In this document: piece after piece, positions 13,657 to 46,635 of the stretch
Layout of the letters: each line of letters starts with the position of its first letter
Numbering within the stretch: the first letter of the stretch is position 1
NCBI RefSeq assembly: GCF_001434575.1
Contig: NZ_AZDA01000079.1
Span: 1 to 64,000 of the forward strand
Length of the DNA: 64,000 bases
DNA from: Loigolactobacillus bifermentans DSM 20003
GTDB lineage: Bacteria; Bacillota; Bacilli; Lactobacillales; Lactobacillaceae
Reading direction: 5' to 3'
Translations under genes and position numbers: made by a program
Notes under the pieces: model-generated
Seen by the model: the letters and a program-made list of their open reading frames with translations, nothing else
Databases searched by the model: none
Told to the model about the DNA's origin: nothing

Positions 13657-13950
13657 CACCAGCTCAGGTGTATAGGACACCTTTGCTTTGCAAAGGCTTT
13701 ATCTTCACTGGTTGTCCAGTCTTGTGGGGGTAAACCGCCCCGCAGGACACATGGCACCAGCTCAAGTACATAGGGTACCTTTGCTTTGCAAAGGCTTCAT
13801 CTTCGCTGGTTGTCCAGTCTTGTGGGGGCAGACCACCCCGCAGGACACATGGCACCAGCTAACTGATCTAAGGTACCTTTGCTTCGCAAACGTTTTATTT
13901 CCGCTGGTTGTCCATTGCTACAGGCACAACCTACACATCCGAAACACACC
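13657..13950. repeat. three tandem 98-bp structured repeat units (cluster 1)
   Basis: Units lie at 13657-13754, 13755-13852 and 13853-13950, each beginning CACCAGCT; units 1 and 2 end ACATGG. Each has three helices. The outer P1 is CCAG(C) / (G)CTGG. The inner P2 is CCTTTGC-TTT-GCAAAGG, perfect in units 1 and 2. P3 is TGTCC..TGTGGGG / CCCCGCA..GGACA. Unit 3 keeps P1 and most of P2 but has a decayed P3. The same fold with different stem sequences recurs near 45.7 and 46.5 kb. Apparent reading frames across it follow the repeat period and have no ribosome sites. Confidence 0.85.
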
Positions 13951-14004
13951 GTTGACTCAAAAAAGCAAGCAGGCGTGTGAATCACATGTCTGCTTGCTTA
14001 AAGG

Positions 14005-14544
14005 TTATGCAATGACTAATTGTTGTGTTTGAATCACGCCTAAAACACCGATAAAGGCAGGTACTTGTTGCAAGGCTGTTGCCACTGTTTGTTGGGTGCC
14101 TGCTGCTGCCATCACATATGTTTTGTTGTACTGCGGTACGGCTAACGTGGCGTAGGCAATCACCCCTAAGCGGCGTTTGGTCATCAAGTCAATGGCTTCA
14201 GCTAAGGTTGCAGCCCGTACCAAATAATGTTGTTGGTCATGGGTGGTCATTTTATAAACCGTCAGTTCTTGGGACCAACTCATTGTGGGTTTGATCGTGG
14301 TTGTTTTCGTTGTCCGCCGACGCCGGCGTTTGGGTTGTTGTGGGCTCAAGGTCTTAATTTGTTTGGTTAAGTCATCAATAATAGCATGTAACTCTTGAAT
14401 TTCATGACAGGCCACACAAGTCTGCGGCTGACTGCCCGCTTCGTGCTGTGCGTTGTCATGATCGGTATACAAATTTGCCAAGTAAACCAGCAATTTATGC
14501 TGATTTTCTTTTAATTGTTGCCGCTTTGCTTCCATCTTCATCAC
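14005..14544 (-). CDS. hypothetical protein with CxxCH motif and Arg-rich linker
   Basis: This 179-residue protein is in three parts. The N-terminal helical part (about 1-75) contains CVACHEIQELH; it has no signal peptide, so a heme role is unlikely, while a metal site is possible. A strongly basic linker PKRRRRRTTK is next, and then a compact alpha/beta domain (about 88-179, WSQELTVYKM to VIQTQQLVIA) that looks like two repeats of a small fold. Start choices are GTG at 14544 or in-frame ATGs at 14541 and 14535, with AGGTG nearby. The basic linker suggests nucleic-acid contact, but this is inference. It stands alone upstream of the repeat cluster. Confidence 0.6.
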   Translation of the reverse strand: MMKMEAKRQQLKENQHKLLVYLANLYTDHDNAQHEAGSQPQTCVACHEIQELHAIIDDLTKQIKTLSPQQPKRRRRRTTKTTTIKPTMSWSQELTVYKMTTHDQQHYLVRAATLAEAIDLMTKRRLGVIAYATLAVPQYNKTYVMAAAGTQQTVATALQQVPAFIGVLGVIQTQQLVIA

Positions 14545-14670
14545 CTATCATTTCAGTCAATATCAAGTATGCGTTAATATTACAACAAGATTACAAAGGT
14601 GTCAAATTTATAACAAAAGCGTTACCAACTTATCTATCTCAACACAAAGCAATTAAAATCAGCGCTAATA

Positions 14671-14702
14671 AAAAAGGATCGCATGACATTTGCAATCCTT
14701 TC
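14671..14702 (-). terminator. terminator of the pyruvate oxidase gene
   Basis: The stem AAAAGGAT / ATCCTTT is followed by U residues on the minus strand, 14 bases past the pyruvate oxidase stop. Confidence 0.7.
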
Positions 14703-14715
14703 TTCCTTTACAAAC

Positions 14716-16458
14716 TTAGGCTTTTGCTTCAGCGTCTGCCAACAATTGGCGGAATGGCACCAGGCCTTCTGCACGATACTGCTTCACAAAGGCAGCGACT
14801 TGAGCTGGATCTTGTGTTTCAGGATCCAATTGTAATTGTTCAACTGGTAATGGGCGTAAATTAGAGATCTTCACATCGATTACAACAGGCCCTTTGCGGT
14901 CTTTCGCAGCAGCGAAGGCCGCTTTTAATTCGGCTAGATTGTGCACTTCATAGCCATCTGCACCAAGCGCCTTTGCAGCGTCACCAAAGTCCCCGTCAAT
15001 CAAATCAACCCCTGAATGTGGTTGCTGATTATCGTCTTGTTCGCCTTCAATGAAGCCTAGGCTTTGGTTCGTTAAGATCACATTGATAATTGGCATATGA
15101 TATTTCACTTGGGTCAACACATCTTGCATGACCATAGCCCAGCCGCCATCGCCGGAAATGGACCAAACTTGACGATCCGGGTAATAAGATTGTGCCCCAA
15201 TGGCTGCTGGCAATGCATAGCCCATTGTGGCATACCAGCCAGACGTGGTAAAACGTTGTTGTTGGTCTGCTTTTAAGAACCGCATCCCGTTAATCGTCAC
15301 ATTTCCCACATCCGTTTGGAAAATCGCATCATCAGTTGCCATATCGTTAATAGCCTTGAAAACGGGTTCCACATGTAATGGGGTGCTGTCATCTGTTTCC
15401 AATGACGTCAACCAGTCACGCCAGTTCGCTTTATTGGCCAAAGCCGCTTCATACCAAGGGGTTGTTGCCGTTGGTTCTGAACGATCTAATAAGGCCTTCA
15501 ACGTTTGATGTGCATCTGCCAAAATTGCAACATCCACACTGTGACGACGTTTAAACTTAGTGCCATCAATATCAACTTGAATGTACTTTGCATCTGGTGC
15601 AATAAAGTAAGGCTGGAATGGGAAATCAGAGCCTAAGAACAGCACTGTATCAGCGCCACGCGCGACTTCAACCCCTGGTTTTGAGGCTACACGTCCAGCT
15701 GAACCCATATTGCCTTTATAAGAATCGGGTACGATACCTTTGGCTAACGCAGTGGTCACAATTGGAATATGCATTTTTTCAGAAAAAGCAATCAAGTCTT
15801 CACGTGCACCACGAATGCCTTGGCCCACATAGATCAATGGATGCTTTGCAGCTTTTAATAAGGCCAATGCTTCATCTACTTTGGTTAAATCAGGTGCCGG
15901 ATAAATTGGCTTTTGATAAAGGTTTGCAGATGACACATAATCGTCTTCGATTTCCTGCCAGCCTAAATCTTTTGGTAACGTCAGGACGGCAACCCCCTGA
16001 TGCGCATACGCTTGCCGAATGGCCTCATCGACCACATGTGGTAATTGTTCGGCGGTCATGATCGTCCGATTGTAAACAGAAACATCCGCAAACATTGGGT
16101 TTTCATTCATTTCTTGGAAATAGTTGGTATTCATAACAGAAGTTGGGACTTGGCCCACTAAGGCTAACACAGGGACATGATCATATTGCGCATCATACAG
16201 ACCGTTTAGCAAGTGCACCGCACCAGGGCCAGCAGAACCAAACGTCACACCGATTTTCCCTGTCACTTTGGCTTCCCCAACAGCCGCTAAGGCGCCGACC
16301 TCCTCGTGACGCACTTGCACATAATTTAAGGTATCCTGACGATTGTGAAGTGCATTCATGGTTGAATCAAAGGAACCACCAGGCAAGCCATAAATATTCT
16401 TGACGCCCCAGCTTTCAATGACCTTCAACATTGCATCTGCCGCATTAATTTTTGTCAT
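14716..16458 (-). CDS. pox: pyruvate oxidase (ThDP- and FAD-dependent)
   Basis: This converts pyruvate, phosphate and O2 to acetyl phosphate, CO2 and H2O2 in the cytosol, an aerobic energy route of lactobacilli. The 580 residues have the standard POX order. The PYR domain has the conserved Glu in QVRHEEVGALAA, the FAD-binding middle domain follows, and the PP domain has the ThDP/Mg motif GDGGWAMVMQDV ending in NQSLGF. The ATG at 16458 has GGAGG 7 bases upstream, so an ATG 27 bases further up is not used. It is a single-gene unit with a palindrome over its promoter. Its H2O2 output fits the peroxidase genes near 61-64 kb. Confidence 0.93.
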   Translation of the reverse strand: MTKINAADAMLKVIESWGVKNIYGLPGGSFDSTMNALHNRQDTLNYVQVRHEEVGALAAVGEAKVTGKIGVTFGSAGPGAVHLLNGLYDAQYDHVPVLALVGQVPTSVMNTNYFQEMNENPMFADVSVYNRTIMTAEQLPHVVDEAIRQAYAHQGVAVLTLPKDLGWQEIEDDYVSSANLYQKPIYPAPDLTKVDEALALLKAAKHPLIYVGQGIRGAREDLIAFSEKMHIPIVTTALAKGIVPDSYKGNMGSAGRVASKPGVEVARGADTVLFLGSDFPFQPYFIAPDAKYIQVDIDGTKFKRRHSVDVAILADAHQTLKALLDRSEPTATTPWYEAALANKANWRDWLTSLETDDSTPLHVEPVFKAINDMATDDAIFQTDVGNVTINGMRFLKADQQQRFTTSGWYATMGYALPAAIGAQSYYPDRQVWSISGDGGWAMVMQDVLTQVKYHMPIINVILTNQSLGFIEGEQDDNQQPHSGVDLIDGDFGDAAKALGADGYEVHNLAELKAAFAAAKDRKGPVVIDVKISNLRPLPVEQLQLDPETQDPAQVAAFVKQYRAEGLVPFRQLLADAEAKA

Positions 16459-16516
16459 GTTATAACCTCCATGTCTGACCATCATTTTTAAGCATCAATT
16501 GCTTTTGAATTTTGCT

Positions 16517-16577
16517 TACTAAAAATAAGTATATTTTTAGTATAGCACTTTACTTACTAAATACAAGCAAAAGTAAA
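16517..16577 (-). promoter_or_regulatory. pyruvate oxidase promoter with overlapping inverted repeats
   Basis: On the minus strand TTGTAT (plus 16561-16566) and TATACT (plus 16539-16544) are 16 bp apart. A perfect 11-bp inverted repeat TACTAAAAATA / TATTTTTAGTA spans 16517-16542 and covers the -10. A second, TTTACTT / AAGTAAA, brackets the -35 (16549-16577). These look like operators; the protein that binds them is unknown. Confidence 0.65.
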
Positions 16578-16663
16578 AAAGCACCACCGACTAACTTCAG
16601 CATACTATGTGCTGGCCTGACAAAGCGACTAATATGCACAACTAAAAACCGATTTTAGGCCAA

Positions 16664-16690
16664 AAAAAACGCCTGTTACCAGACGTTTGT
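16664..16690 (-). terminator. terminator of the NlpC/P60 gene
   Basis: The stem AAACGCCTG / CAGACGTTT (one mismatch) is followed on the minus strand by a long U run, 11 bases past the stop. Confidence 0.75.
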
Positions 16691-16700
16691 CATGACTAAT

Positions 16701-17606
16701 TTAGTTAACATGGACCCCAAATGAAGGTTGGAAGTAAGAATTGATGCTTTGTACTTCAACACTTTGACCAGGTTGTGGGGCAGCGATATATTGGTTATTA
16801 CCAATATAAACGGCGGTATGATAAGTTGAACCTTGGTTGCCCCAGAACATTAAATCACCAGCCTGTAATTGGCTAACACTAACACGTGAACCTGCTGATT
16901 CTTGTGCAGTAGTCGTCCGACCAATTTGTTTACCGGCTTGATTATAAGCATATTGGGTCAAACCAGAGCAATCAAAACCGCCGTTACCCGTACCGCCCCA
17001 TGCATAAGGTACACCTAATTGAGACTTTGCAGCATTCACAATGGCTTGGGCTGTGTTATTTGAATAAGTGCCAGTTGCTGTCGGCGTAGTTGATGCAGTG
17101 GTCGCAGCTGCCTGTTGTTGGCTGGTAGCTTGTTGACCAGCAGCTTGATACGTTGCACCCGTTTGAGCGGTTGTTGCGGCTTGCGTCGTCGCTGCCTGTG
17201 CAGTGGTTGTAGCTGCTGTGCTGGTTTGAGCCTGAGCTTGACCAGCTTGAACAGTCGCCGTTTGTTGGTCAGCAGTAACCTGTAAATATTTACCTGGAAC
17301 CCATTGATCCTGGCCAATATTGTACCAAGTTTCACCATAAACTTGTTTACTGGCTGTAATATTGACTTGATCCCCTTCAGTCAAATAACGAACTGGTTGT
17401 GGTGTTTGGTCAACGTTGTTCCAAACGGTTGTTGCACCGCCATGATACGTGACAGTCCCCGTTGTCGCTGCCTGAGCGGCCGTTGATGTTTGCAAACTGA
17501 TCACCGTTGCACCAGCGACCCCGATCACACCAGCGGTGATTCCTTTTACCAAATTACTTTTCATTTTCATAAAGCGCGCATACCCCTTAATATCATCTTT
17601 TTTCAT
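16701..17606 (-). CDS. secreted NlpC/P60 peptidoglycan endopeptidase with SH3-like domain
   Basis: This is an exported cell-wall hydrolase of about 300 residues that should cut within peptidoglycan stem peptides. A signal peptide (KMKSNLVKGITAGVIGVAGA, cleaved after TSTAAQA) is followed by a bacterial SH3 domain (about 55-115, TVWNNVDQTPQPVRYLTEGD), a 70-residue Ala/Thr/Gln linker and the C-terminal NlpC/P60 domain. That domain has the catalytic Cys in FDCSGLTQYAY, the His in TYHTAVYIG and a third polar residue near NQYIAAP. The start may be the ATG at 17606 (AGGA upstream) or in-frame ATGs at 17570/17564. It is monocistronic. Confidence 0.9.
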   Translation of the reverse strand: MKKDDIKGYARFMKMKSNLVKGITAGVIGVAGATVISLQTSTAAQAATTGTVTYHGGATTVWNNVDQTPQPVRYLTEGDQVNITASKQVYGETWYNIGQDQWVPGKYLQVTADQQTATVQAGQAQAQTSTAATTTAQAATTQAATTAQTGATYQAAGQQATSQQQAAATTASTTPTATGTYSNNTAQAIVNAAKSQLGVPYAWGGTGNGGFDCSGLTQYAYNQAGKQIGRTTTAQESAGSRVSVSQLQAGDLMFWGNQGSTYHTAVYIGNNQYIAAPQPGQSVEVQSINSYFQPSFGVHVN

Positions 17607-17763
17607 TTTTCCTAATGTTAACTATACCGGCTTACCGTTACAACCCCGTATCGGTAAAATGACAACTATATTACAAAAACGTGAAAGTCTTGCATTCAGT
17701 TTAATTTCGTGCTAGTTTGTCACTTTCTGAAAGAAAATCACATTTTGAGTTGTTGACAATCAC

Positions 17764-17800
17764 AAAAAAAGTCAGGCCCATTGCTGAGCCTGACTTTTTT
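17764..17800 (-). terminator. terminator of the 93-aa gene
   Basis: The stem AAAAGTCAGGC / GCCTGACTTTTTT overlaps the stop codon of the minus-strand gene at 17799-18080. Confidence 0.85.
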
Positions 17801-18080
17801 ATTCTGGTAAGTTTTTCAAATGCTTCTTGAGATACGCCAATAACTGCGCCTCATTTCGAAAAACACGCGGTCGTTTCTGACCGTGTAGCCTTAGATTGAT
17901 CTGATTGATCTTCATACGTCCTGTCCAGGTATAGCTGTATTGTACGACATAGCGATTATTTAACAGCTTTTTCCCAAACCGCAGCACGTAATAATTTTCA
18001 GACGCAATCAGTGGCGACACGTAATTTTTTTTATATTTAAAGCCATTCGCTTTTAAATAATTTTTGGTTTTACTAAGCAT
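17799..18080 (-). CDS. small hypothetical protein (93 aa)
   Basis: This is a basic 93-residue protein (many Lys, Arg, Tyr) with alternating beta-like segments such as YVVQYSYTWTGRMKINQINL and a helical C-terminus. No signal or membrane segment is seen. It has an ATG with AGGAAG upstream and its own terminator, so it is probably real. No family recognised. Confidence 0.55.
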   Translation of the reverse strand: MLSKTKNYLKANGFKYKKNYVSPLIASENYYVLRFGKKLLNNRYVVQYSYTWTGRMKINQINLRLHGQKRPRVFRNEAQLLAYLKKHLKNLPE

Positions 18081-18182
18081 TGATCGCCACTTCCTTCCGC
18101 CCGATTTAAAGCACTAGCTAATGTATATAATACAAAAATTTGGGCTTAAAAGCTAGCAAATCAATCTAATTTATGCTTTTTA

Positions 18183-18428
18183 CTATAGGCGTCCTGTATA
18201 AGTCATGAAACTAATGTAACAAGTATCCCCATCTGGTAAGTCATAACCTGTGTTCACGCCACTTCCATTATCTTCGTGTAGTACCATGAATTCACCTGAA
18301 CCAAAATCTTGCGAATTTAAATAAGTGACTAATTTATGATCGCACTCTTCCAAAGTTTTACCAGTCACCATACGGCGGTTCCAACCACGGTTCACTTCAC
18401 TGTTTTTGTTCGTATTAATTGCAGGCAT
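18183..18428 (-). CDS. small hypothetical protein (81 aa)
   Basis: This 81-residue soluble protein has two Cys (EECDHK, DTCYIS) and an acidic, Gly-rich second half. It is preceded by GAGGAGCG about 5 bases before the ATG. It stands alone between the 93-aa gene and the channel gene. No family or function can be given. Confidence 0.55.
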   Translation of the reverse strand: MPAINTNKNSEVNRGWNRRMVTGKTLEECDHKLVTYLNSQDFGSGEFMVLHEDNGSGVNTGYDLPDGDTCYISFMTYTGRL

Positions 18429-18633
18429 TTTATCGCTCCTCTTTATAAAAACTGTCTTCTATTATACGCACTTTTCTTTCAGAAAACATAAAGAACTAAT
18501 GAATTTGGAAATTTTTCGAAAAAATCCAATTTTTTTCTGAAACCTTTGGTATACTAGGAACTTGTACGCATCATTTGCTTTTTCATGAAAAGCACATTAC
18601 ATAATTGTTTAGCATAACAAGGGGGAAAATCAG

Positions 18634-19350
18634 TTGATTCATCAGATGTTGGCAGAATTTATGGGAACCGCCTTAATGATCGTTTTTGGGGTCGGCGTTC
18701 ACTGTAGTGAAGTTTTGAAAGGCACCAAATACCGTGGTTCCGGTCATATTTTCGCCATTACAACTTGGGGTTTTGGTATCACCGTTTCATTATTTATCTT
18801 TGGTAATGTTTGCATCAACCCAGCCATGGTCTTGGCGCAATGCCTATTAGGCAATATCGCTTGGTCATTATTTATTCCTTATTCTGTCGCCGAAGTCTTA
18901 GGCGGGGTTGTTGGCGCCGTGATTGTTTGGATCATGTACGCTGATCATTTTAAGGCGTCTCAAGACGAAATTTCACCGATCACCATTCGGAACCTGTTCT
19001 GTACAGCACCTGCTATTCGGAACTTACCTCGAAATTTCTTCGTGGAATTCTTTGATACCTTTATCTTTATTGCGTCTATTCTGGCTATTTCAGAAATTAA
19101 AACACCTGGGATCGTCCCAATCGGCGTTGGTTTGCTGGTTTGGGCTATCGGCATGGGGCTTGGCGGTCCAACAGGGTTCGCGATGAACCTGGCGCGTGAT
19201 ATGGGCCCACGGATCGCTCACGCGATTTTACCTATTAAAAATAAAGCAGATAATGACTGGCAATACGGAATCATCGTTCCCGGGATTGCACCTTTCGTAG
19301 GTGCTGCCGCTGCCGCATTATTCATGCATGGTTTCTTCAATATCGGTTAA
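18634..19350 (+). CDS. MIP-family channel (glycerol/lactate facilitator-like)
   Basis: This 238-residue six-helix channel lets small neutral solutes such as glycerol, water or undissociated lactic acid cross the membrane; lactobacillar homologues such as LarD move lactate. The first half-helix motif is intact (INPAM near residue 68). The second is MNLARDMGPR near 188, where Leu replaces the Pro of NPA. The start is TTG with GGGGG 9 bases upstream, and a strong terminator follows. It stands alone, without glycerol kinase or lar genes, so the solute is uncertain. Confidence 0.85.
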   Translation: MIHQMLAEFMGTALMIVFGVGVHCSEVLKGTKYRGSGHIFAITTWGFGITVSLFIFGNVCINPAMVLAQCLLGNIAWSLFIPYSVAEVLGGVVGAVIVWIMYADHFKASQDEISPITIRNLFCTAPAIRNLPRNFFVEFFDTFIFIASILAISEIKTPGIVPIGVGLLVWAIGMGLGGPTGFAMNLARDMGPRIAHAILPIKNKADNDWQYGIIVPGIAPFVGAAAAALFMHGFFNIG

Positions 19351-19353
19351 TTC

Positions 19354-19394
19354 CATTCAAAAATCCTTGGCAGTTTGCCAAGGATTTTTGAATG
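19354..19394 (+). terminator. terminator of the MIP channel gene
   Basis: A perfect 18-bp stem CATTCAAAAATCCTTGGC / GCCAAGGATTTTTGAATG with a 5-base loop. It may also stop the converging 77-aa gene. Confidence 0.9.
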
Positions 19395-19401
19395 CCTTTT
19401 T

Positions 19402-19635
19402 TTAAACCATATCCCACAAAAGATCTTTATCAGGGGCCACCGTGTTAGCAGGCACCACATCAAAGCCTAACGCCTTCCCTGCGTCAATGGCGCCACCGGC
19501 AACCGTTAACAGCGTTTGTTGTTGGTAGGCTTGCTTAATCGCAGTACTAGCCGCTGCCAGATCATCAAATTGCGCATAGTAGCTGGCCCGCAAACCACCG
19601 TTAAAGTAAAAACTAACTTTAAAATATTTATTCAC
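19402..19635 (-). CDS. small hypothetical protein (77 aa)
   Basis: This 77-residue soluble protein begins MNKYFKVSFYFNGGLRASYY and then has a helix (DDLAAASTAIKQAYQQQT). AGAGGAAA is upstream of the ATG. The pattern looks like a small alpha/beta fold. It converges on the channel gene. No family recognised. Confidence 0.55.
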   Translation of the reverse strand: MNKYFKVSFYFNGGLRASYYAQFDDLAAASTAIKQAYQQQTLLTVAGGAIDAGKALGFDVVPANTVAPDKDLLWDMV

Positions 19636-19671
19636 AGTTTTTCCTCTTTTCTCATTTACTAAAAGGATACC

Positions 19672-20610
19672 CTAAACCGGCTTATTTTGAAACGTTTGTC
19701 GCCCTAATTCTTGGTAAAAAGTTGCCAATTGTGCCCCCTGCTGCGTCAAGGTCCAGGCTAACACTTGCCGCCGCTGCGCTGGTTGCATCAGAATCGTCGG
19801 CAATGCTAATTCGTCCTGAATTGTTGCATAAGCCGCTAAAATATCGGTCAGATCCAGATTATCTTGTACCATTAATTGTTGAAAACACTGACTGTAATAA
19901 GCTTCGACCTTATAATAAGTTAACCGATAATCAAAACTGCGTGGTGTTAAAGCATGCTGACACGCCTGTTGCGTGTGGCACATGGAAACACCTGCCAGCT
20001 CAAAATCAACACAGCGCAACAAAGCTAGCAACGACTGCCCCGGCTGCTTAGCCGCCCAAGCGGCTTGAAACCGTAAATGCTGCACTAAATATTGTTGCGC
20101 AAAATCACCTTGCGTCTGTGCCGCTGTATTAGCCGCCGTCAATAACTGAGCCACACAGGCTGTTTCTGATAAGCCAACAGCTGGTAATTGTTGCCGCTTG
20201 GCTTGTTCAAAGTCGATGATGCCTGGAAAATAGTGACAGTGTACCCACCAACTGGTTGTGTCACAGGTCAATAACGTTTGCCCAGCTGGCGTCACTTGGT
20301 AATAGCCTTGCGGAAAATCCGCCTGCCACTGATCCGGTGTGACTGCTGCAAGTCGCGCCACTAACTCAGCTTTACGACCACTGATTTTAAGTTGCTGCCG
20401 CCGTAACACAACTTTCAAGGCCGCCACTGTTTGTTGGGGTAACACCACCAGCGCGTCATGACTAACTTGCACCAAGTGCTGTTTGAGCAAAGTTGGCAAG
20501 ATCTGCTGTGGCGTCACGTCATAGTGTTGCCAAAAAGCTTGTTTAAACTGATAGGTTTGCGGCTGTCCTGCAATGAGATGTAAGGCAATCACGAACTGCG
20601 CCGGTGTCAT
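19672..20610 (-). CDS. hypothetical protein with a SAP-like domain
   Basis: The protein has about 312 residues. Around residues 60-85 it has VAALKVVLRRQQLKISGRKA followed by ELVARL, which matches the helix-turn-helix pattern of SAP domains, usually nucleic-acid-binding. The rest is Gln/Leu-rich and helical, with no membrane segment. The ATG at 20610 is chosen because AAAGGGGGG lies 8 bases upstream; an ATG 21 bases further up lacks a site. It stands alone. The SAP call is from pattern only and the role is unknown. Confidence 0.6.
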   Translation of the reverse strand: MTPAQFVIALHLIAGQPQTYQFKQAFWQHYDVTPQQILPTLLKQHLVQVSHDALVVLPQQTVAALKVVLRRQQLKISGRKAELVARLAAVTPDQWQADFPQGYYQVTPAGQTLLTCDTTSWWVHCHYFPGIIDFEQAKRQQLPAVGLSETACVAQLLTAANTAAQTQGDFAQQYLVQHLRFQAAWAAKQPGQSLLALLRCVDFELAGVSMCHTQQACQHALTPRSFDYRLTYYKVEAYYSQCFQQLMVQDNLDLTDILAAYATIQDELALPTILMQPAQRRQVLAWTLTQQGAQLATFYQELGRQTFQNKPV

Positions 20611-20788
20611 ATAGTGCCCCCCTTTTGCCATGCTGAATAGCTTTCATTGTAAAGCGCCACGCCAAGCTGTCAACCTGTGTGAATCTGTGAAAACGGTATG
20701 AATTCTTCATGTTCGCTTGCCTTCTTTTAAAACAGCGCTTACAATTTAGTTATGCAAAATATTTATTTTTTACTGGAGGCCAACTAAC

Positions 20789-39220: not shown

Positions 39221-39248
39221 TTTGACACTTCCTTTGTGTTCTTTAGTA

Positions 39249-39266: not shown

Positions 39267-39274
39267 AGTCATTC

Positions 39275-39300: not shown

Positions 39301-39624
39301 CAGTAAAGCCTTCATATTAACCGCTGCATCCGCAAATTTATCAGCCACCACTTGGGCATTGGCCTGATAGTAAATTTCACGCCCTGCTTTACGCCGCTGT
39401 ACCACCTGATAACGATAGAGTAGGTCTAAATGCCGAGAAATCACCGACCGATTTTGTGGAAATTCCGCCGCAATCTCACTAATCGTCATTTCACCATTAC
39501 TGGCTAAAAATAAAATCAAGTTACTGCGCACCGGGTCACAGATCACGCGAAAAAACGGTAGATCAATTTTTTCTTCGATTAATTGTTGACAAGTCTCTGG
39601 ATCATATTTATGTTGCATCTGCAT
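39286..39624 (-). CDS. ArsR-family transcriptional repressor
   Basis: This small winged-helix repressor of about 112 residues has FRVICDPVRSNLILFLASNG, the recognition helix EFPQNRSVISRHLDLL and a wing with RKAGREIYYQ. The promoter read on the minus strand (TTGACA at 39664-39659, TATAAT at 39640-39635) puts the transcript start near 39628. Upstream in-frame starts at 39657 and 39636 are therefore excluded, and the message would be nearly leaderless from 39624 or 39618. No clear metal-binding Cys pair is seen. It probably controls itself and the MFS pump. Confidence 0.82.
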   Translation of the reverse strand: MQMQHKYDPETCQQLIEEKIDLPFFRVICDPVRSNLILFLASNGEMTISEIAAEFPQNRSVISRHLDLLYRYQVVQRRKAGREIYYQANAQVVADKFADAAVNMKALLSLPH

Positions 39625-39634
39625 CACCACGTTC

Positions 39635-39664
39635 ATTATATGTGCATGTTTGTGCACGTGTCAA
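39635..39664 (-). promoter_or_regulatory. arsR promoter with operator in the spacer
   Basis: On the minus strand TTGACA and TATAAT are 18 bp apart, both perfect hexamers. The 18-bp element at 39637-39654, repeated ahead of the MFS gene, fills the spacer, so a bound repressor would block the polymerase. Confidence 0.7.
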
Positions 39665-39754
39665 CCATTTTATAACCCAATCATTGCGTGCTACATTTGG
39701 CCATCACGATTCTCAAGCCGCCGGTATTTGGCTCTTAACGCATCATTCAAACCT

Positions 39755-39787
39755 AAAAAAAGACCTGCTGGTTTCCCAACAAGTCTT
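39755..39787 (-). terminator. terminator of the cystine-type symporter gene
   Basis: The stem AAGACCTGCTGG / CCAACAAGTCTT with flanking A and T runs lies just past the symporter stop. Confidence 0.75.
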
Positions 39788-39793
39788 TCAAAC

Positions 39794-41074
39794 CTATGCG
39801 GCTGCTTTTTTCTCACTTTGTGAAACTAACGTTGCAGCCACCATGGAACTGGTAACGTTCGTGGTTGTCCGAGCCATATCAGCAAACGCATCAATCCCGG
39901 CAAAAATACTGATCATACTAACTGGTAACCCTAAAATTACGAATAATGCGGTCGCTAACATAATGCCACCACCAGGCACACCTGCAGTCCCTAAGGAGAC
40001 GATTGGGCATAGCACAATGATCACTACGGCCTGGGCAATGGAAATATTGCCCCCCATTGCATGGATCGTATAAACAGCTAACAATGGTGGCCAAACGCCG
40101 GCACAACCAGACATCCCCATGGTCGTGCCTAAAGACCCAACAAAGTTCGCAACACTTTCAGGAACCCCAACCTTCGTGGTTAAACATTCCACATAAAGTG
40201 GCAAGGTCCCAGAACTACTCCGAGTAGAAAATGCCATTAATTGCGCTGGAATAATCCCTTTAAAGAATTTTCGCAATGACATTTTACCAACAAACTTCAG
40301 CAAAATACTGTCGGTTACGTAAATGTGGAACGCACAGCCGACAAAAGCAAACACGATCAACAATGCCAATGGTAATAACGCTTTGGGATCACTGTTACTA
40401 ACCGTGTCTGCCATTAAACAAATCACAGAGTATGGCAAGAACTTAATGATCACCCGAATCAATTGATACACAATGGCGTGGCTATCATCAATGAAGTGCT
40501 TAAAGGTCACCATGCGGGTTGCATCCTTGGAAGACAACGCCACAACCGCGATCCCAACAATAATGGCAAAGAAGACGACTGGAATCAATTGCCCTTCTGA
40601 CATGGCATTAAATAGATTATCCGAGAATAAATCCGTAATGACTTGTGTGAATGGTGGGATCTTAGCAATTTTGACACTCTCCACAATATGTAAGTGACTC
40701 CCTTGCCCTAAACCAGAAGCAAGCGCTAATGCCATCCCAACAATAGCGGCTAATAACGTTTGGAATAATAGCCAAAAAACTGATTTTGCCCCAATTTTCT
40801 TTAATTGCTGCAACGATTTCATATCATAAATACTCTTGATCAATGACACTAATAATAGCGGAATAACCATCATCGAAATGACTTTGGTATAAATTGTCCC
40901 TAAAACGGCAACATAAGTGGTATGGCCCTTAAAAATCAAACCGATCACGATCCCAATGATTAAAGCCACTACCGCTGCAAACGTAAAGTTTGACTTGTGT
41001 TGCAATAAATAAATTCCGTAACAGGCCAGTAGCGCAACCGCTAACGTGGCCAAATTCCACATAATATCCATTTG
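39794..41074 (-). CDS. dicarboxylate/amino acid:cation symporter, TcyP-like (L-cystine uptake)
   Basis: This 426-residue membrane carrier belongs to the DAACS family. Near residue 270 it has the Ser-rich re-entrant loop AFSTRSSSGTLPLYVE, followed by ESVANFVGSLGTTMGMSGCAG. That resembles the cystine carrier TcyP of Bacillus more than glutamate carriers, which have a charged NMDGT-type motif at that place. About eight helices can be counted. The start is taken at ATG 41074 with GGGGGA upstream; a longer frame to 41110 lacks a site. It stands alone. Cystine as substrate is inferred from the motif. Confidence 0.83.
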   Translation of the reverse strand, partial: QMDIMWNLATLAVALLACYGIYLLQHKSNFTFAAVVALIIGIVIGLIFKGHTTYVAVLGTIYTKVISMMVIPLLLVSLIKSIYDMKSLQQLKKIGAKSVFWLLFQTLLAAIVGMALALASGLGQGSHLHIVESVKIAKIPPFTQVITDLFSDNLFNAMSEGQLIPVVFFAIIVGIAVVALSSKDATRMVTFKHFIDDSHAIVYQLIRVIIKFLPYSVICLMADTVSNSDPKALLPLALLIVFAFVGCAFHIYVTDSILLKFVGKMSLRKFFKGIIPAQLMAFSTRSSSGTLPLYVECLTTKVGVPESVANFVGSLGTTMGMSGCAGVWPPLLAVYTIHAMGGNISIAQAVVIIVLCPIVSLGTAGVPGGGIMLATALFVILGLPVSMISIFAGIDAFADMARTTTNVTSSMVAATLVSQSEKKAAA

Positions 41075-41406
41075 AATCCCCCATTTAGTGATGTAACTGA
41101 TCGACAACACGTTCTATTAAAAAACAAATTGACCGGTCTGTCCTAAATTATGAGAAGGTTAATAAAAAAAACATTTTGGCTCTCATTCAATGTTTTCAAC
41201 AAGTTAATTTTCAAAATTGATTTCAGACAGTTTTCACAATTTAAAATGAAAACGAAATTATGAAAACTTTATAATACTAGGCTCGTTCAATAAAAGTTAG
41301 CAATTTTAATAAAAAAATCTCGTCAAAAGCGCCAAAATAACGTCAAAAAAAATAAGACCATGACTTACGCCATTATCTTATTTTTCACAATCTGAACAAT
41401 TCAGCG
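41075..41406. other. AT-rich gap with terminator, no gene seen
   Basis: No coding frame is convincing. It holds a terminator-like stem (AATAAGA / TCTTATT, about 41350-41385) for the minus-strand ECF gene, an AT-rich stretch with TATAAT at about 41268-41275, and repeated GAAAAC/GTTTTC segments at 41200-41265 that could be promoter or operator sequence for the symporter gene. Confidence 0.4.
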
Positions 41407-41967
41407 CTAGTGCTGCTTAATCAAAAAGCGCTTAAACCGCGGTTGATTGACTAACGCCGCCACAATCAAGCAGGATAAGATCTTATCCACGAAATTCCCC
41501 ACAACAGTCCCCATAAACGTTGAGGAGATCATAGATTTACCGGAAGCCTTTAACGTGAAGATCAATAAGTCAGTGCCTGAACCGGTAAACCCACCGTACA
41601 GCCAAAGTCGAATTGGCGTACCGATAGCTGGCGCCACAACAGACAAAATCAGCCCTGCAATAATTGCCTTCCGGTAGGAAAAGCCATTGTGCCGCGCTAG
41701 TAAACCGACAACAATTGCCACCGCAATACTGACGATTGCAAAGGGTAATTCCATTAGGCCACCGCCAAACGGCATTAGTAAAAAGTTAGACACAAAGCCA
41801 GTTAAGGCACCCCATAAAATACCGCCTTCCACCGCCATGTAAATCGTCCCAATGGTATCTAAAAATAATAATGGGATATGTAATGCAGCCACCGTTTCCC
41901 CTAAAACGACGTTTAAAACGGCTGCTAGTGCACAATAAACTACCAAACGCACCTGGTTATGTTGCAA
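41407..41967 (-). CDS. ECF transporter S component (CD3073-like)
   Basis: This 186-residue membrane protein with six helices is the substrate-binding part of an energy-coupling-factor importer. Helix 1 and the loop LGETVAALHIPLLFLDTIGT, then EGGILWGALTGFVSNFL, match S-component patterns, and the basic C-terminus (PRFKRFLIKQH) is cytosolic. The start is TTG with GAGGAG upstream. No EcfA/EcfT genes are near, so it must use a shared module. The next gene upstream in the operon is a TudS-like desulfidase, a pairing I recall from Clostridium difficile (CD3072/CD3073). The substrate may be a thio-compound, which is inference. Confidence 0.8.
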   Translation of the reverse strand: MQHNQVRLVVYCALAAVLNVVLGETVAALHIPLLFLDTIGTIYMAVEGGILWGALTGFVSNFLLMPFGGGLMELPFAIVSIAVAIVVGLLARHNGFSYRKAIIAGLILSVVAPAIGTPIRLWLYGGFTGSGTDLLIFTLKASGKSMISSTFMGTVVGNFVDKILSCLIVAALVNQPRFKRFLIKQH

Positions 41968-41986
41968 AAAAAATCACTCCTCATAT

Positions 41987-42463
41987 TTAATCGCTTGATT
42001 TCAAAAATTGTTGCAATTGCTGTTCAAAAGCAGCGGCATTTTCAGGATAGGTCACTGGAACGGCTAATTTCGGCAGTTCCAGGCCATTGTCCTGGCAAAG
42101 CTGTTCAAAAATAGACATGAACACCCCTGGTCGCTTCAATAAATCACAATTAGGACTGTCCTCAATGCCTAGCACCCCTAGTAACTGGACCCCATCCGCT
42201 TGTAATTGAACCAATTCCTGAATCGTTGGTTGCAATAATTGCCGACAATAGGCGTGATAGCCTGGCAATGCTTGGTATTCGGCATACGTCATACCAGGTC
42301 GATTCGCCCCTAAGTGCAAAAACTCAGGACATGGCAATTGCACCAAACTAATTTGCGGCGGGATCTGCTTCACAAACGGAAACGCCCCAATTGCACGTTC
42401 TAAACCGTGCACCACCACACTTTGATTCAGAACACAATGACTGACAACGAGTGCACAGCGCAT
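41987..42463 (-). CDS. TudS-like desulfidase (DUF523-related)
   Basis: This protein of about 158 residues has three Cys placed as in thiouracil desulfidase TudS, which binds a [4Fe-4S] cluster and removes sulfur from thionucleobases: one in SHCVLNQ near residue 10, one in LPCPEF near 45, and one in SPNCDLLKRPG near 125. The ATG at 42463 has AAGGAGG 6 bases upstream; a longer frame begins 9 bases earlier. It is the first gene of a two-gene unit with the ECF S component. The true substrate is not known. Confidence 0.75.
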   Translation of the reverse strand: MRCALVVSHCVLNQSVVVHGLERAIGAFPFVKQIPPQISLVQLPCPEFLHLGANRPGMTYAEYQALPGYHAYCRQLLQPTIQELVQLQADGVQLLGVLGIEDSPNCDLLKRPGVFMSIFEQLCQDNGLELPKLAVPVTYPENAAAFEQQLQQFLKSSD

Positions 42464-42693
42464 GTAAGTCACCTCCTTCCCTCAAAAATTATACTTGTTG
42501 TTTCGTTACTTCACAACGCTTACATGATGCTTTTCTTTCGTTATGTATTTAAGTAAATTGTTTGCAAGAATAATGCAATTATTTTCATGAAAACGTGCTT
42601 TATCCTTTTTTACCCCAGCGCTAAACTATTGTTGCTGCTTGAACAAAGCTGTAAAATAAGAGTTAACATCAAGTCAAAAAAGGGGGCTTCACT

Positions 42694-43488
42694 TTGCGTG
42701 ACACATTACCGGATCCGCTGGTTTTCCAAACCAATGCGGCAAAGCATAAACCTGAAAATATTCGGCAGCCATTAAATGCCTGTCCATTTTGTGCACCCGC
42801 GCAGCTCACCAATGTGTTGCTGCAACAGACTGATATGATCTGGCTGGTGAATAAATTTCGAACGCTGCAAAATACCTTGCAAACGTTGATCATTGAATCA
42901 ACGGATCATCAAGGGGACATTTCCAATTACACCGTGGCCTACAACCGTCAACTATTTGCTTTTGCATTTCAATGTTGGCAGCAACTGCAAGCTGATCCCC
43001 GTTACCAAAGCGTTGTGATGTATAAAAATTATGGGCCTTTATCTGGTGGCAGTTTGCGGCATCCCCATTTACAAATCGTCGGCTTTGAACAAATTGACGG
43101 CTACGCCGATATTTCACTGGCCCATTTTCAAGGCTTACCGGTTAGCGAAACAGATGCGCTAACGGTGACGATTTCCACCAAACCCGTCATGGGCTTTGTG
43201 GAGATCAACGTCCATTTAAAACAAGCAACGGCTTTAACCGCCTTAGCAGATACAGTCCAAGCAATTATCACCTATGTCTTGCAACGCCATTATCATGGTC
43301 AGTGTGACTCCTACAATCTCTTTTTTTACCAGCTTAACGGAGACGTTTACTGTAAAGTCCTCCCTCGTTTTGTGGTATCACCTTACTTCGTCGGTTATCA
43401 CTTGGCCCAGGTCAACGATCATGAACAATTGATGGCGGTTCAACATGGTTTACGCACCATCTTCGCTGAACGCGGGCTCTGCCAATGA
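42694..43488 (+). CDS. DUF4931 / GalT-like HIT-superfamily protein
   Basis: This 264-residue protein has an N-terminal CPFC Cys pair near 31 that could hold zinc and, near residue 116, GGSLRHPHLQIVG, which resembles the HxHxQ active-site motif of galactose-1-phosphate uridylyltransferase and other HIT enzymes. It may transfer a nucleotide or hydrolyse a nucleotide bond. The start is TTG with AGGGGG 7 bases upstream. The stop overlaps the next start by ATGA, so it is coupled to the TauE-like transporter. The substrate is unknown. Confidence 0.75.
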   Translation: MRDTLPDPLVFQTNAAKHKPENIRQPLNACPFCAPAQLTNVLLQQTDMIWLVNKFRTLQNTLQTLIIESTDHQGDISNYTVAYNRQLFAFAFQCWQQLQADPRYQSVVMYKNYGPLSGGSLRHPHLQIVGFEQIDGYADISLAHFQGLPVSETDALTVTISTKPVMGFVEINVHLKQATALTALADTVQAIITYVLQRHYHGQCDSYNLFFYQLNGDVYCKVLPRFVVSPYFVGYHLAQVNDHEQLMAVQHGLRTIFAERGLCQ

Positions 43489-44219
43489 GCCAACTGGTAT
43501 TTGTGCTGCTTATTGCCCTATTCGGTGCGCTGGTCCGGACAGTTGTCGGTTTCGGGGAAGCGCTGGTCTCCATGCCGTTATTAGCGTTGATTGGATTTGA
43601 CCTGCCAACCGCAACTGCCTTGATTGGCGCGCTAGGACTGATTGTCGCACTACCGGCAACCATTCGCTATCACCAACAGATTAACTTTCAGGTGGTACGC
43701 CGCTTGGTCACAGGTTCCTTGTTAGGCGTCCCATTAGGGATTTTACTGGTTAAAACCGTGCCGACGGGCTGGGTGCTTCATGGCTTAGGCTTATTTTTAA
43801 TGGCCAATGGTGGCTACGGATTATGGCAAGCGTTTCATCAGCACCGCCGCCAACCACACTTTCAGCACAATGGTTGGGACTATGTGGCCGGCTTGATAGC
43901 TGGTGCATTAGGCAGTGCTTACAACAGTCACGGGGTCCCAGTTGCCTTGTACGGCAGTTTTAAACAGTGGCCCGTGTCTCAACTACGTGGCATTTTACAG
44001 GCACACTTCCTATGCGTTGGGCTATTAGTGGTTGGCAGTCAAATAGCGGCTGGCTTTTGGAACATGACAGTGGTCAAACTGTTGTTGGTCTTACTGCCTT
44101 TATTAGTGCTAACAATTGGGGCTGGTAATTGGTTATTTGCTCGCTTGCCACGCGAAAAACTAACCCACTATTTAAACGGTTTATTCATTATTTTCGGAAG
44201 CTTATTATTAGCCCGGTAA
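43485..44219 (+). CDS. TauE/SafE-family membrane transporter (DUF81)
   Basis: This 244-residue protein with about eight helices has the family's repeated motif in GFGEALVSMPLLALIG and a second copy region with LIAGALGSAYNSHG. Relatives export sulfite, sulfoacetate or other small organic anions. It overlaps the DUF4931 gene and forms a two-gene unit with it; a strong terminator follows. The transported compound is unknown. Confidence 0.83.
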   Translation: MSQLVFVLLIALFGALVRTVVGFGEALVSMPLLALIGFDLPTATALIGALGLIVALPATIRYHQQINFQVVRRLVTGSLLGVPLGILLVKTVPTGWVLHGLGLFLMANGGYGLWQAFHQHRRQPHFQHNGWDYVAGLIAGALGSAYNSHGVPVALYGSFKQWPVSQLRGILQAHFLCVGLLVVGSQIAAGFWNMTVVKLLLVLLPLLVLTIGAGNWLFARLPREKLTHYLNGLFIIFGSLLLAR

Positions 44220-44220
44220 C

Positions 44221-44259
44221 ACAAAAAAACGCCACTCGCAATGAGCAGCGTTTTTTTGT
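44221..44259 (+). terminator. terminator after the TauE-like gene
   Basis: The stem ACAAAAAAACGC / GCGTTTTTTTGT with an inner CTC / GAG helix. Confidence 0.85.
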
Positions 44260-44340
44260 TTGGCTGTAGCAACTTTTTGTGTTAGACACACAATGAGCTA
44301 AATTATACCACATTTTCAGTAAATTAGGCGATTTCATTTA

Positions 44341-44913
44341 TCAGATAGCGTTTTCAAGTGTTTTTGACTGCATCAAGCCTTGGATCGTATCCCCAATAAA
44401 GGTCATTAAATAGTCGCCTTCTTGTTGCAGTGAACGTGGTTGGCAATCAAACAACCAACGGCGGAGTTCCGCAAATAACCCTGGTGCCAACATCATTTGA
44501 ATAAATTGAATGTAATCGGCTGTCACTGGTAATTGATTTTGGGCGCATAGATCCAGCAGCACCTCATGGATCAAGGTTGCAATTTCTGACTGTATGATTG
44601 GTGCTAAAGCATTTTGACCCGTCACGACCAGTACGCGCCGATAAAAGAAACGATTTCGTTCAAAATAAGTTAAAAGTTGCATCACCAGTTGCTGCCAATG
44701 GGCATCATCAGCCGGTACCGTTACAGCTTGGGTCAGATCTGTTTGATAAATGCCGGTTACCAAGGCATATTTATCTGGAAAATAACGGTAAAAACTTTGC
44801 CGCCGTAAATGCGCCGTGCGCATGATCAACGTGACGGATAGTTCTTGAAAAGAATAGGGAATCAATAATTTTTTTGTCGTTTGCGTAATTTGCGTTTGAA
44901 TGCGATCTTTCAT
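44341..44913 (-). CDS. TetR-family transcriptional regulator
   Basis: This 190-residue repressor has an N-terminal helix-turn-helix in ELSVTLIMRTAHLRRQSFYRY, ending FYRYFPDKYALV, which is the usual TetR signature. The C-terminal ligand domain (about 60-190) is helical; the N-terminal pattern is close to DhaS-type regulators. GAGG precedes the ATG. It stands divergent from the flavoprotein gene at 45125, a plausible target. Confidence 0.82.
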   Translation of the reverse strand: MKDRIQTQITQTTKKLLIPYSFQELSVTLIMRTAHLRRQSFYRYFPDKYALVTGIYQTDLTQAVTVPADDAHWQQLVMQLLTYFERNRFFYRRVLVVTGQNALAPIIQSEIATLIHEVLLDLCAQNQLPVTADYIQFIQMMLAPGLFAELRRWLFDCQPRSLQQEGDYLMTFIGDTIQGLMQSKTLENAI

Positions 44914-45124
44914 ACTGAAAACCTCGTTGCTTTTGGAATAAATTTATCATAGCACACGTGATTTTCTGAACTTGCTTAAAACACCTACTAATTTCAGCAA
45001 CCGCTTACTTACATCTTTTGTCAGTTTGTTTTCATTTAAAGTCACTTAATCTGACTTTTTTTCATACCGACAGAATTTTTTTGATACACTTAATTGGTAA
45101 CTACTGATCAAGAAAGGTGATCCT

Positions 45125-45619
45125 ATGTTAAAAAACCATCATATTGCCCTTTACGTTAGCGCCGCTTTAAACATTCATCAAGTGCCTCAATTGATTCAGG
45201 GCTTGATTGCGGCCGGTGCCGAAGTCCGGGTGGCCATGACACCAGGCGCGCAGGCATTTATCACCCCCTTAACTTTACAAACTTTAAGCCAACATCCGGT
45301 TTACACCAACCGCTTTGGCCAAAACAACGTGCAACATGTAAGTCACATTGACCTAGGCGACTGGGCTGAATTAGCCGTTGTGGCACCGGCCACGGCCGAC
45401 ATCATCGGTAAAATGGCCAACGGTATCGCTGACGACATTGCCACCACCGCGTTAGTGGCAACAGCAGCCCCTAAAATCGTCGTGCCGGCCATGCACCCGG
45501 TCATGCTGGCCAACGTAGCCGTACAACGTAATTTAAAGCAATTAGCAGCAGATGGCATCACCTTATTGAAGCCTGATGTCGGTTTCCAAGCAGACAGTTA
45601 CCAACGCTTTTTTGACTAA
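45125..45619 (+). CDS. HFCD-family flavoprotein (phosphopantothenoylcysteine decarboxylase-like)
   Basis: This 164-residue FMN-binding protein belongs to the family of PPC decarboxylase and EpiD. Family marks are the His in VSHIDLGDWAE near residue 74, PATADIIGKMANGIADD near 89 and PAMHPVML near 121. Two usual residues differ: Asp for the Asn in PASAN, and His for the Asn in PAMN. The role could therefore be another flavin-linked decarboxylation or reductase step. No lantibiotic genes lie nearby. AAGGTGA precedes the ATG and a strong terminator follows. Confidence 0.8.
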   Translation: MLKNHHIALYVSAALNIHQVPQLIQGLIAAGAEVRVAMTPGAQAFITPLTLQTLSQHPVYTNRFGQNNVQHVSHIDLGDWAELAVVAPATADIIGKMANGIADDIATTALVATAAPKIVVPAMHPVMLANVAVQRNLKQLAADGITLLKPDVGFQADSYQRFFD

Positions 45620-45625
45620 ATCATC

Positions 45626-45656
45626 CCGGTTAAGGCCCTGGCTTTAACCGGTTTTT
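45626..45656 (+). terminator. terminator of the flavoprotein gene
   Basis: The stem CCGGTTAAGGCC / GGCTTTAACCGG (one G-U) is followed by T5 and lies directly before the repeat cluster. Confidence 0.88.
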
Positions 45657-45661
45657 AATTG

Positions 45662-45857
45662 CACCAGCTAAGTACTCTGTGGTTATTTTGCTTCACAAAA
45701 TCCGATTTCCACTGGTTGTCCATTGCTACGGCACAATCTCCCTCGTAGAAAACATGGCACCTCCTAAAATCTCTGATGACTATTTTGCTTACGCAAAAAT
45801 CTTATTTCCGGAGGATGGCCATTCCGTCGGACGAAAACCGTCACGTCGGAAACATGG
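45662..45857. repeat. two structured repeat units (cluster 2)
   Basis: Unit 4 lies at 45662-45757 and unit 5 at 45758-45857. Unit 4 uses the CCAG / CTGG outer stem of cluster 1, with inner helix TTTTG.TTC.CAAAA and third helix CTACG / CGTAG. Unit 5 uses the other outer stem, CCTCC / GGAGG, inner TTTTGC / GCAAAA and third helix TTCCG.CG..GACG / CGTC..CG.CGGAA. Both end ACATGG. The junction of the two sequence types in adjacent units shows they belong to one family. Confidence 0.85.
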
Positions 45858-45904
45858 CAAAAAACAGACGCTACCCCAATGGTGAACGTCCGCTTCCTCA
45901 TCTG

Positions 45905-46432
45905 TTAATTGTTGCCTAGCCAGTCTTCATAATTTTCAATCACAGGCCGGCCATCTTCTTCATAGTACAAAATGTCGTGATTGCCATCGTAAGGGTCAAA
46001 CGCTGCATCTGCTTCGGCCTTAGCTGCCGCGGCCGCATTTTCATCTGCAATTTGCTTCTGGCGTGCTGCTTCCTGTTGCGCCGCAGCTGCAGCCTGTTCG
46101 GCTGCTTTTTTCTGAGATTTGGCGGCTGCTTGTTTTTGAGCCGCTGCAGCCTGCTGTGCCTTGGCAACTGATTCCGACTCAGCTTGCGCTTTAGCTGCTT
46201 TTTCGGCCTCTAATTGGCGTTGTTTTGATTCTGATGCTGCCTGCGCTTCTGACTCGGCCTTAACCTTTGATGCCGACTTTGCCTTGGCTTCAGATGCTTT
46301 TTTCGCTGAATCCTGCTGTTCTGTACGCGGTGTCGTGGTCTCAGCAGCCTCATCTGGCGTGATCATCACAATTCCAATCAGCAGTGCAACAAGGGCTAAA
46401 CTGATCCCGAGCGCCCATTTTTTAGCGTTCAT
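45905..46432 (-). CDS. membrane-anchored extracellular coiled-coil protein B
   Basis: This protein of about 175 residues has a signal-anchor helix (WALGISLALVALLIGIVMI) at the N-terminus, with basic residues before it, so the body lies outside. Residues 40-140 are an Ala/Lys/Glu/Gln-rich coiled coil (AAKSQKKAAEQAAAAAQQEA), followed by an acidic tail with YYEEDGRPVIENYEDW. It has no sortase motif. The ATG at 46432 uses AGGAGGT as its ribosome site, and that site is part of repeat unit 6. It is a shorter relative of the next gene upstream. No enzyme domain is visible; a structural or envelope role is likely. Confidence 0.65.
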   Translation of the reverse strand: MNAKKWALGISLALVALLIGIVMITPDEAAETTTPRTEQQDSAKKASEAKAKSASKVKAESEAQAASESKQRQLEAEKAAKAQAESESVAKAQQAAAAQKQAAAKSQKKAAEQAAAAAQQEAARQKQIADENAAAAAKAEADAAFDPYDGNHDILYYEEDGRPVIENYEDWLGNN

Positions 46433-46438
46433 GATCGG

Positions 46439-46635
46439 CACCTCCTAAGTGATCTATGGTTAGATTTTGTTATCACAAAATTTTATTTCGGAGGATCACC
46501 ATTCCGTCGGGCGAACACCGCCACGTCGGAATCATGGGCCTCCTCAGTGATCTAAGGTTAGATTTTGTTGTCACAAAATTTCATTTCGGAGGATCACCAT
46601 TCCGTCGGGCGTACCCCACCACGTCGGAAACATGG
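46439..46635. repeat. two structured repeat units (cluster 3)
   Basis: Unit 6 lies at 46439-46537 and unit 7 at 46538-46635, both of the CCTCC / GGAGG type. In unit 6, P1 is 46441-46445 with 46490-46494, P2 is TTTTGT-TATC-ACAAAA at 46465-46480, and P3 is TTCCG.CG.GGCG / CGCC.CG.CGGAA at about 46502-46531 with an outer CCAT / ATGG closing it. The cluster fills the gap between the two coiled-coil genes. On the minus strand its last bases are the ribosome site of gene B. Confidence 0.85.

Follow-up and report, generated by a model that had tools for sequence, protein, structure and literature searches.

Structured repeat units in Loigolactobacillus whose arrays commonly end at the ribosome-binding sites of genes

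Mycobacterial interspersed repetitive units (MIRU) occur in tandem and vary in number. The accessible part of PMC12548453 describes them as short and apparently mobile repeats that lie at the translation signals of start codons with little impact on the gene, and as inserted at the start codon with an open reading frame (ORF) coupled to the gene at a spacing of -4. In the accessible parts of two further sources, BOX elements (boxA-boxB(n)-boxC) are structured and modular, variable in the number of internal units and thought to be parasitic (PMC3049150), and REPs are palindromes of 20-40 bp (PMC3733652). Here we describe repeat units of ~98 nucleotides (nt) that form two hairpins, the first with a stem P1 enclosing P2 and the second a stem P3; seven of them lie in a 64,000-nt stretch of Loigolactobacillus bifermentans DSM 20003 (contig NZ_AZDA01000079.1, positions 1 to 64,000), hereafter the window. 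We give a probability of roughly 0.6 to the reading that they belong to a non-autonomous repeat of mobile type, short and non-coding, which occurs in the Lactobacillaceae, is abundant in Loigolactobacillus and as a rule resides at the ribosome-binding site. Open-licence papers yielded no description of the repeat family, and the accessible part of a review of MITEs (PMC10969869) makes no mention of MIRU, ribosome or Shine-Dalgarno.

The units resemble MIRU, to which they are likened by description, in being dispersed, oriented with the adjacent gene and placed at its translation-start signal (60/79 arrays in L. bifermentans and 47/63 in G005, a second species with a complete genome), and in forming tandem arrays of variable unit number. 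They differ in their site, which here is the Shine-Dalgarno sequence (SD) and not the start codon, and in that a coupled ORF is unsupported in L. bifermentans and G005, though in L. backii and L. zhaoyuanensis no frame is more open than that of the ATG. Among structured modular repeats, pneumococcal BOX elements come closest in kind; however, no counterparts of the end modules boxA and boxC were recognised here (no systematic search for them was made), the one unit tested has no inverted repeat at its ends, and placement at the SD is not described for BOX in the accessible part of PMC3049150. With REP and BIME the units share their intergenic position, palindromic character and high copy number, but they are longer, have two hairpins and occur in genomes of which 2/8 hold a Y1 (RAYT) transposase. 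They are like an SD-sequestering leader RNA in that P1 pairs the SD with an anti-SD in L. bifermentans, and unlike one in their tandem copies, in having no regulon shared with G005 and no predicted extra occlusion, and in the absence of the P1 of L. bifermentans from an unfitted alignment of G005 units. The family is set apart from MIRU and BOX by the SD as site, the covarying arm that pairs with it and the lack of a demonstrated ORF.

Arrays and gene starts

The L. bifermentans genome holds 153 units, counted in the stretches around matches, in 79 arrays, where an array is a set of same-strand units within 150 nt; 31 arrays are single, 28 double, 15 triple, 4 quadruple and 1 quintuple. No unit has an opposite-strand unit within 150 nt of it, and the tandem, same-strand arrangement reported in an earlier note on the window is supported. 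A covariance model (R1) trained on 78 units of this genome, the seven window units among them, gave by itself 147 units at E <=0.01 among the best 150 candidates scored, and BLAST with unit 1 of the window gave 52 matches, 46 of them at E <0.1.

The neighbouring genes are mostly on the strand opposite to the one followed in the earlier note, and on their strand the arrays mostly end ...TTAGGAGGT, followed by the start codon. Within 30 nt (3-15) of the gene-proximal end, 60/79 arrays have the start of an ORF of at least 50 amino acids (aa), as against 5/79 at the opposite end (Fisher p 2e-20), and the unit end that adjoins the start is usually AGGAGG, in SD position. The earlier note's picture of the units, their strand and their structure stands; what it missed is the coincidence of array ends with the ribosome-binding sites of opposite-strand genes. 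For G005 the count of 47/63 refers to ORFs of at least 60 aa (3/109 matches were left out of the array count), and its junctions read GTGAAGTA or similar, then sequences such as AAAGGAG or GAGG. Another profile placed 59/78 arrays of L. bifermentans and 48/65 of G005 next to a start; in partial samples the same profile gave 16/19 for L. zhaoyuanensis, 18/30 for L. backii, 11/21 for L. iwatensis, 6/11 for L. binensis and 4/11 for L. jiayinensis, with 0/3 in G001 and 0/1 in Pediococcus. Position also varies with the P1 arm, named here by its sequence on the strand opposite to the gene: a start is adjacent to 0/5 arrays whose last arm is CCAGC or CCGGC versus 60/74 of the others (p 5e-4), and 59/95 units with CCTCC arms are gene-proximal versus 4/21 with CCAGC arms (p 5e-4), a count that omits 32 units with other arms and 5 unmatched ones.

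At the gene-distal end 58/79 arrays have a readable edge, the other 21/79 being without a readable CCAT edge. The flank is unlike the unit tails in 39 of these 58 (as compared with the tails of units in the fetched arrays; C35:9287, C106:33413 and C143:15386 are by eye still tail-like), and 22/39 carry an SD-like 4-mer in their last 9 nt, compared with 0, 4, 4 and 3 of 39 in control windows further out. Flanks such as AACAAAAGGAGGA and AAAACGAAAGGAGGC look, from their letters, like the former SD of the gene. The other 19/58 repeat the tail of the family, at times perfectly over 27-30 nt (C30:42351, C145:2913). In the reading as a mobile-type repeat, each unit occupies the space from an SD-like sequence to the start codon, oriented with the gene, and its final bases stand as the SD, which is AGGAGG in L. 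bifermentans and, in G005 and its relatives, GTAGA leading into a purine-rich SD; because the unit end itself stands as SD, occupation even of core genes would be tolerated. Arrays differ by whole units, which would be gained and lost probably via recombination between the ~25-30-nt tails or renewed insertion, whilst new sites would arise by transposition, the hairpins may serve the mobile step and the effect on the host is presumably near neutral.

The genes at the arrays are unrelated. Seven examples are of the types gyrase A, RNA polymerase beta', biotin carboxylase, ketoacyl synthase, PlsX, PP-loop and a gyrase-B-like ATPase, with Pfam matches to DNA_topoisoIV, RNA_pol_Rpb1_1, Biotin_carb_N, ketoacyl-synt, FA_synthesis, PP-loop and HATPase_c respectively, the last just under the cut-off. 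Between 62 array genes of L. bifermentans and 50 of G005 there is one clear ortholog pair (65%, full length), other matches being at 24-45%.

Two smaller observations concern the G005 arrays. Those next to a start are co-directional with replication in 43/47 cases and the others in 12/16, with the origin assumed at ~0 and the terminus at ~1.575 Mb, which may be gene strand bias only. A Group II intron domain V (RF00029, 49.3 bits) lies on the gene strand near position 498456 (L052 970-1040), ~260 nt before a three-unit array.

Structure, strand and coding capacity of the unit

It had been claimed from the seven window units that the stems covary, and with 78 units of the same genome this is confirmed. 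Standard pairs fill 94.6% of pair cells versus 84.1% in shuffled alignments, two-sided changes occur at 14/23 pairs versus 8.0 in the shuffles, and the covariation score is 0.303, reached by 0/500 shuffles, versus 0.133 in these; with the pairing partners slid by 1-3 columns the score is 0.044-0.095. The shuffle control takes no account of kinship among units, and it is the slid controls together with the number of different pair types that make a chance origin of the covariation unlikely. Two-sided changes are present in P1, P2 and P3. The arms of P1 pair as CCTCC/GGAGG, CCAGC/GCTGG, CCTTC/GAAGG and CCGGC/GCCGG, and P3 shows seven different fully Watson-Crick triplets at the same columns, where some common types retain one mismatch. 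In a covariance-model check of the kind that the earlier note had called for, the seven units are found again, covariation exceeds the controls and copies occur in other Lactobacillaceae. Rfam gave 0 matches at the gathering score in the window and, at E <=5 or <=1, nothing credible across a unit in the stretches searched. Selected secondary structure in the units is supported.

The wobble pairs carry information on the strand. In the lower P3 stem of 148 units T-G wobbles on the strand followed in the earlier note outnumber A-C by 86 to 10, three of its eight pairs supplying 82/86 and the counts not being independent; in P1 of the same units the lean is reversed, favouring the mRNA strand by 18 versus 8. 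From the P3 asymmetry we argue for selection of P3 in the antisense strand relative to the gene, whether as single-stranded DNA or antisense RNA. By eye, P1 of the L. bifermentans type had seemed absent from other lineages, and two alignments differ on this: an alignment fitted to the model, and leaning to it, pairs 102/130 P1 cells in G001-G005 (117/120 in L. bifermentans and 39/40 in L. backii and L. iwatensis), and an unfitted alignment of 20 gene-proximal G005 units shows none, its consensus structure being P3 only, which does not covary within these 20 units. In 14 unit pairs of sister species, substitutions read on the element strand number 23/720 at paired and 31/670 at unpaired positions, one misaligned pair (identity 0.44) included, and are too weak for inference on stem selection.

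No conserved ORF was established in the units. At least 16 open codons are found in the ATG frame of 57% of L. bifermentans units versus 72% and 73% for the other frames, and of 62% of G005 units versus 32% and 69%; the ATG frame is the most open one in L. backii (65, 53 and 28%) and L. zhaoyuanensis (57, 50 and 50%). Among 82 L. bifermentans units a stop follows after 4-5 codons in 28, and the ATG is missing from its expected place in 10. A leader-peptide attenuator was considered, as many junctions read AGGAGG-N-GCCATG, and rejected on the early stops and on an ATG frame that is not the most open, a result firm only for L. bifermentans and G005.

Spread, site differences and rival readings

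R1 found units in 8/8 Loigolactobacillus genomes and in 0/52 others. A model built for the genus (R2) found them in 20/301 genomes of the family, these being 8/8 Loigolactobacillus and 12/293 other Lactobacillaceae from five further genera, under stricter filters and with the best 13 candidates scored per genome, such that its misses are not firm. The search in other Lactobacillaceae that had been suggested turned up units outside the genus, and strict restriction to Loigolactobacillus is ruled out. One locus outside the genus (L320) has tandem units of the CCTCC type. When named genomes were scanned for a pattern, 63 of the 68 stretches obtained lay in Loigolactobacillus; four elsewhere were taken for chance, and Pediococcus parvulus has one genuine unit (nhmmer 1.3e-15, L240 3555-3658). 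The latter is flanked on both sides by another hairpin repeat.

Comparison of orthologous leaders over all species gives 38 with a unit and 35 without, both directions being counted and some matches ambiguous; with L. bifermentans genes as queries there are 2 with a unit, both from one gene (C32:78641, in G005 and L. backii), and 7 without. The cleanest pair is L. binensis, with one unit before GAGAGG (L068), and L. jiayinensis, with no unit or remnant (L228), at 83% aa identity. Between L. backii and L. iwatensis the unit number differs at 3/11 SD sites (1 and 2, 1 and 0, 5 and 3), and the 1-and-0 site, a region found by homology, differs by a whole unit that is bordered by copies of a ~27-nt tail.

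A number of observations weigh against a mobile-type repeat at home in ribosome-binding sites. The 19/79 L. bifermentans arrays that are not start-adjacent lie outside that home. The gene at C32:78641, the best case for a shared function of the units, has them in G005, L. backii and also L. iwatensis, and another gene has units common to these three species, as would fit an old insertion or a regulated gene. L. backii and L. iwatensis have 10/11 SD sites filled in both, a figure that overestimates shared sites as the loci were mostly chosen for having units. The near-identical 1-and-0 site may be a loss, the ~27-nt unit tail being kept in the "empty" species, L. zhaoyuanensis L274 and L261 may hold decayed unit remnants, and other "empty" leaders are too diverged to serve as proof of insertion. 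Furthermore, the units have no linked transposase or recombinase; Y1 transposase (PF01797) is in 2/8 genomes of the genus, and beside the L. bifermentans Y1 copies no unit match was seen at E <=1 for one and a chance-level match (E 0.33) for the broken one. The single unit in L068, the one unit examined, lacks an inverted repeat at its ends, and one array query each against plasmids and phages gave no match.

The units could instead be cis-acting 5'-leader RNAs (a thermosensor, riboswitch or protein-binding leader) in which P1, by pairing SD with anti-SD, switches many genes, which we hold to be unlikely. The location at start codons is what one would expect of them, P1 is the SD/anti-SD pair in L. 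bifermentans and is fully paired in 53/59 gene-proximal CCTCC units, G-U pairs on the mRNA strand included, and the lean of P1 to mRNA-strand wobbles, the sites retained between sister species and the one gene with units in four species are all in keeping with it. However, P1 is about equally intact in internal units, which directly control no gene (32/36), the P3 wobbles favour the opposite strand, the unfitted G005 consensus is P3 only and even the fitted P1 is weaker in G001-G005 than in L. bifermentans, and the genes are unrelated, nearly none being shared with G005. SD occlusion as a common switch is unsupported in folding models: the predicted unpaired probability of the SD core is 0.354 for array genes (n = 47) and 0.386 for controls (n = 43; p 0.59), genes without GGAGG being omitted and three further ones skipped. 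Among the options left open by the earlier note a translation regulator fits the position, yet predicted SD accessibility is unchanged and one clear ortholog pair is shared with a distant species; its "mobile hairpin element" fits best.

How a mobile repeat would find its sites is a separate matter. That it is guided by its own anti-SD arm, with CCTCC recognising the GGAGG common before genes and the paired changes in P1 amounting to natural retargeting, is in our judgement improbable; if true, it would be a selfish element that addresses sites by the recognition rule of the ribosome and pays by rebuilding the SD. An IS200/IS605- or REP-like single-strand element, whose CCTCC arm guides it to an SD cleavage site and whose P1 covariation is retargeting, appears quite improbable. 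The order SD-like flank, unit and SD again (22/39) is the geometry expected from IS200/IS605 anatomy, arrays ending in non-SD arms avoid start codons, hairpins lie near both ends and the P3 wobbles point to a single strand of one polarity. Against this, the Y1 transposase was not found in six of the eight unit-bearing genomes, such that mobilisation by a resident Y1 enzyme is unsupported, and the unfitted G005 alignment lacks the P1 of L. bifermentans; two non-SD units have a flank of their own, and by eye AGCGGG (C63:36224) resembles the arm but GTAGCTA (C119:71003) does not. A family of antisense or stand-alone small RNAs, passively multiplied and with SD-adjacent copies as one habitat only, would accord with a P3 wobble asymmetry that points to the strand antisense to the gene and with a stand-alone class of units within longer hairpin composites; 60/79 arrays end at a gene start, which is needless for an independent RNA gene, and we regard this as highly improbable.

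Should the reading as a mobile-type repeat prove true, ~60 L. bifermentans genes, including those for DNA gyrase and RNA polymerase, would be translated from a repeat-derived SD, and translation signals would be a niche for small mobile repeats outside the mycobacteria. Leader annotation, start-site calls and operon models in Loigolactobacillus would have to allow for SD inserts of ~100 nt, and the arrays would provide natural with/without pairs for measuring the effects of structured leaders, as well as a variable-number marker for typing in the genus.

Some further elements were seen alongside the arrays. The L. bifermentans copies of the Y1 transposase lie at C119:54660-55017 (matched in two pieces) and C85:82752-82964 (three stops). 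A second, stand-alone class of units is nested in longer hairpin composites away from SDs; in L. bifermentans five single units lie inside a repeated composite of ~300 bp (C136:10108, C30:62137, C41:6290, C65:43461 and C97:148014) which by eye has its own outer stem, AGGCCGATTTT / AAAATCGGCC. In L. backii a stand-alone unit is held by a hairpin-rich block of ~770 nt with no evident gene (C89, L210 18046-18820), which is cleanly absent in L. iwatensis (L317) and has ~4-5 nt (TTCTA/CTCTA) repeated at its ends; it is possibly a mobile element of its own.

The seven units of the window

R1 recovers all seven units on the + strand, at the places and in the single orientation that the earlier note had given. 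The units and their neighbours, with R1 scores in bits and z-scores for folding against shuffles where they are extreme or near zero, are as follows.

13657..13756, +: unit 1, P1 CCAGC/GCTGG, gene-proximal unit of array 1 (78.1 bits)
13755..13854, +: unit 2, CCAGC type, array 1, 90% identity to unit 1 by BLAST (85.7 bits)
13853..13951, +: unit 3, array 1, degenerate, P3 decayed (44.4 bits over 13853-13926; z -0.15)
45662..45759, +: unit 4, CCAGC type, array 2 (72.5 bits)
45758..45859, +: unit 5, CCTCC type, array 2 (103.9 bits; z -4.7)
46439..46539, +: unit 6, CCTCC type, gene-proximal unit of array 3 (88.5 bits; z -3.9)
46537..46637, +: unit 7, CCTCC type, array 3, 92% identity to unit 6 (85 bits)
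12956..13615, -: HAD-family gene, transcribed away from array 1 (Pfam HAD_2, E 1.5e-8)
46441..46446, -: AGGAGG, presumed SD, at the minus-strand 3' end of unit 6
46490..46494, -: CCTCC, anti-SD arm of P1 in unit 6 (GGAGG at 46490 on the + strand)
45905..46432, -: 175-aa gene with the end of array 3 as presumed SD (no match other than DUF1373 below threshold)

Units 1, 2, 5 and 6 fold more stably than shuffles (z -2.6, -3.0, -4.7 and -3.9), and units 3, 4 and 7 do not (-0.15, +0.17 and -1.1); the seven taken alone are for that reason weak structural evidence. The ending ACATGG that had been ascribed to all of them is absent from unit 3 and is TCATGG in unit 6.

The three arrays differ in what adjoins them. 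The HAD-family gene starts 42 nt beyond unit 1 and has its own upstream GAGAGGA as SD. Array 2 lies between convergent gene ends with no start codon close by. At array 3 the AGGAGG of unit 6 is 8 nt from an ATG (46432-46430), the gene starting 7 nt past the matched unit end; its 175-aa product has, by eye, a hydrophobic N-terminus and a remainder rich in A, K and S. This ORF and the minus-strand ORF at 46659-47306 are adjacent and both A/K/S/E-rich by eye, the first of them beginning at array 3.

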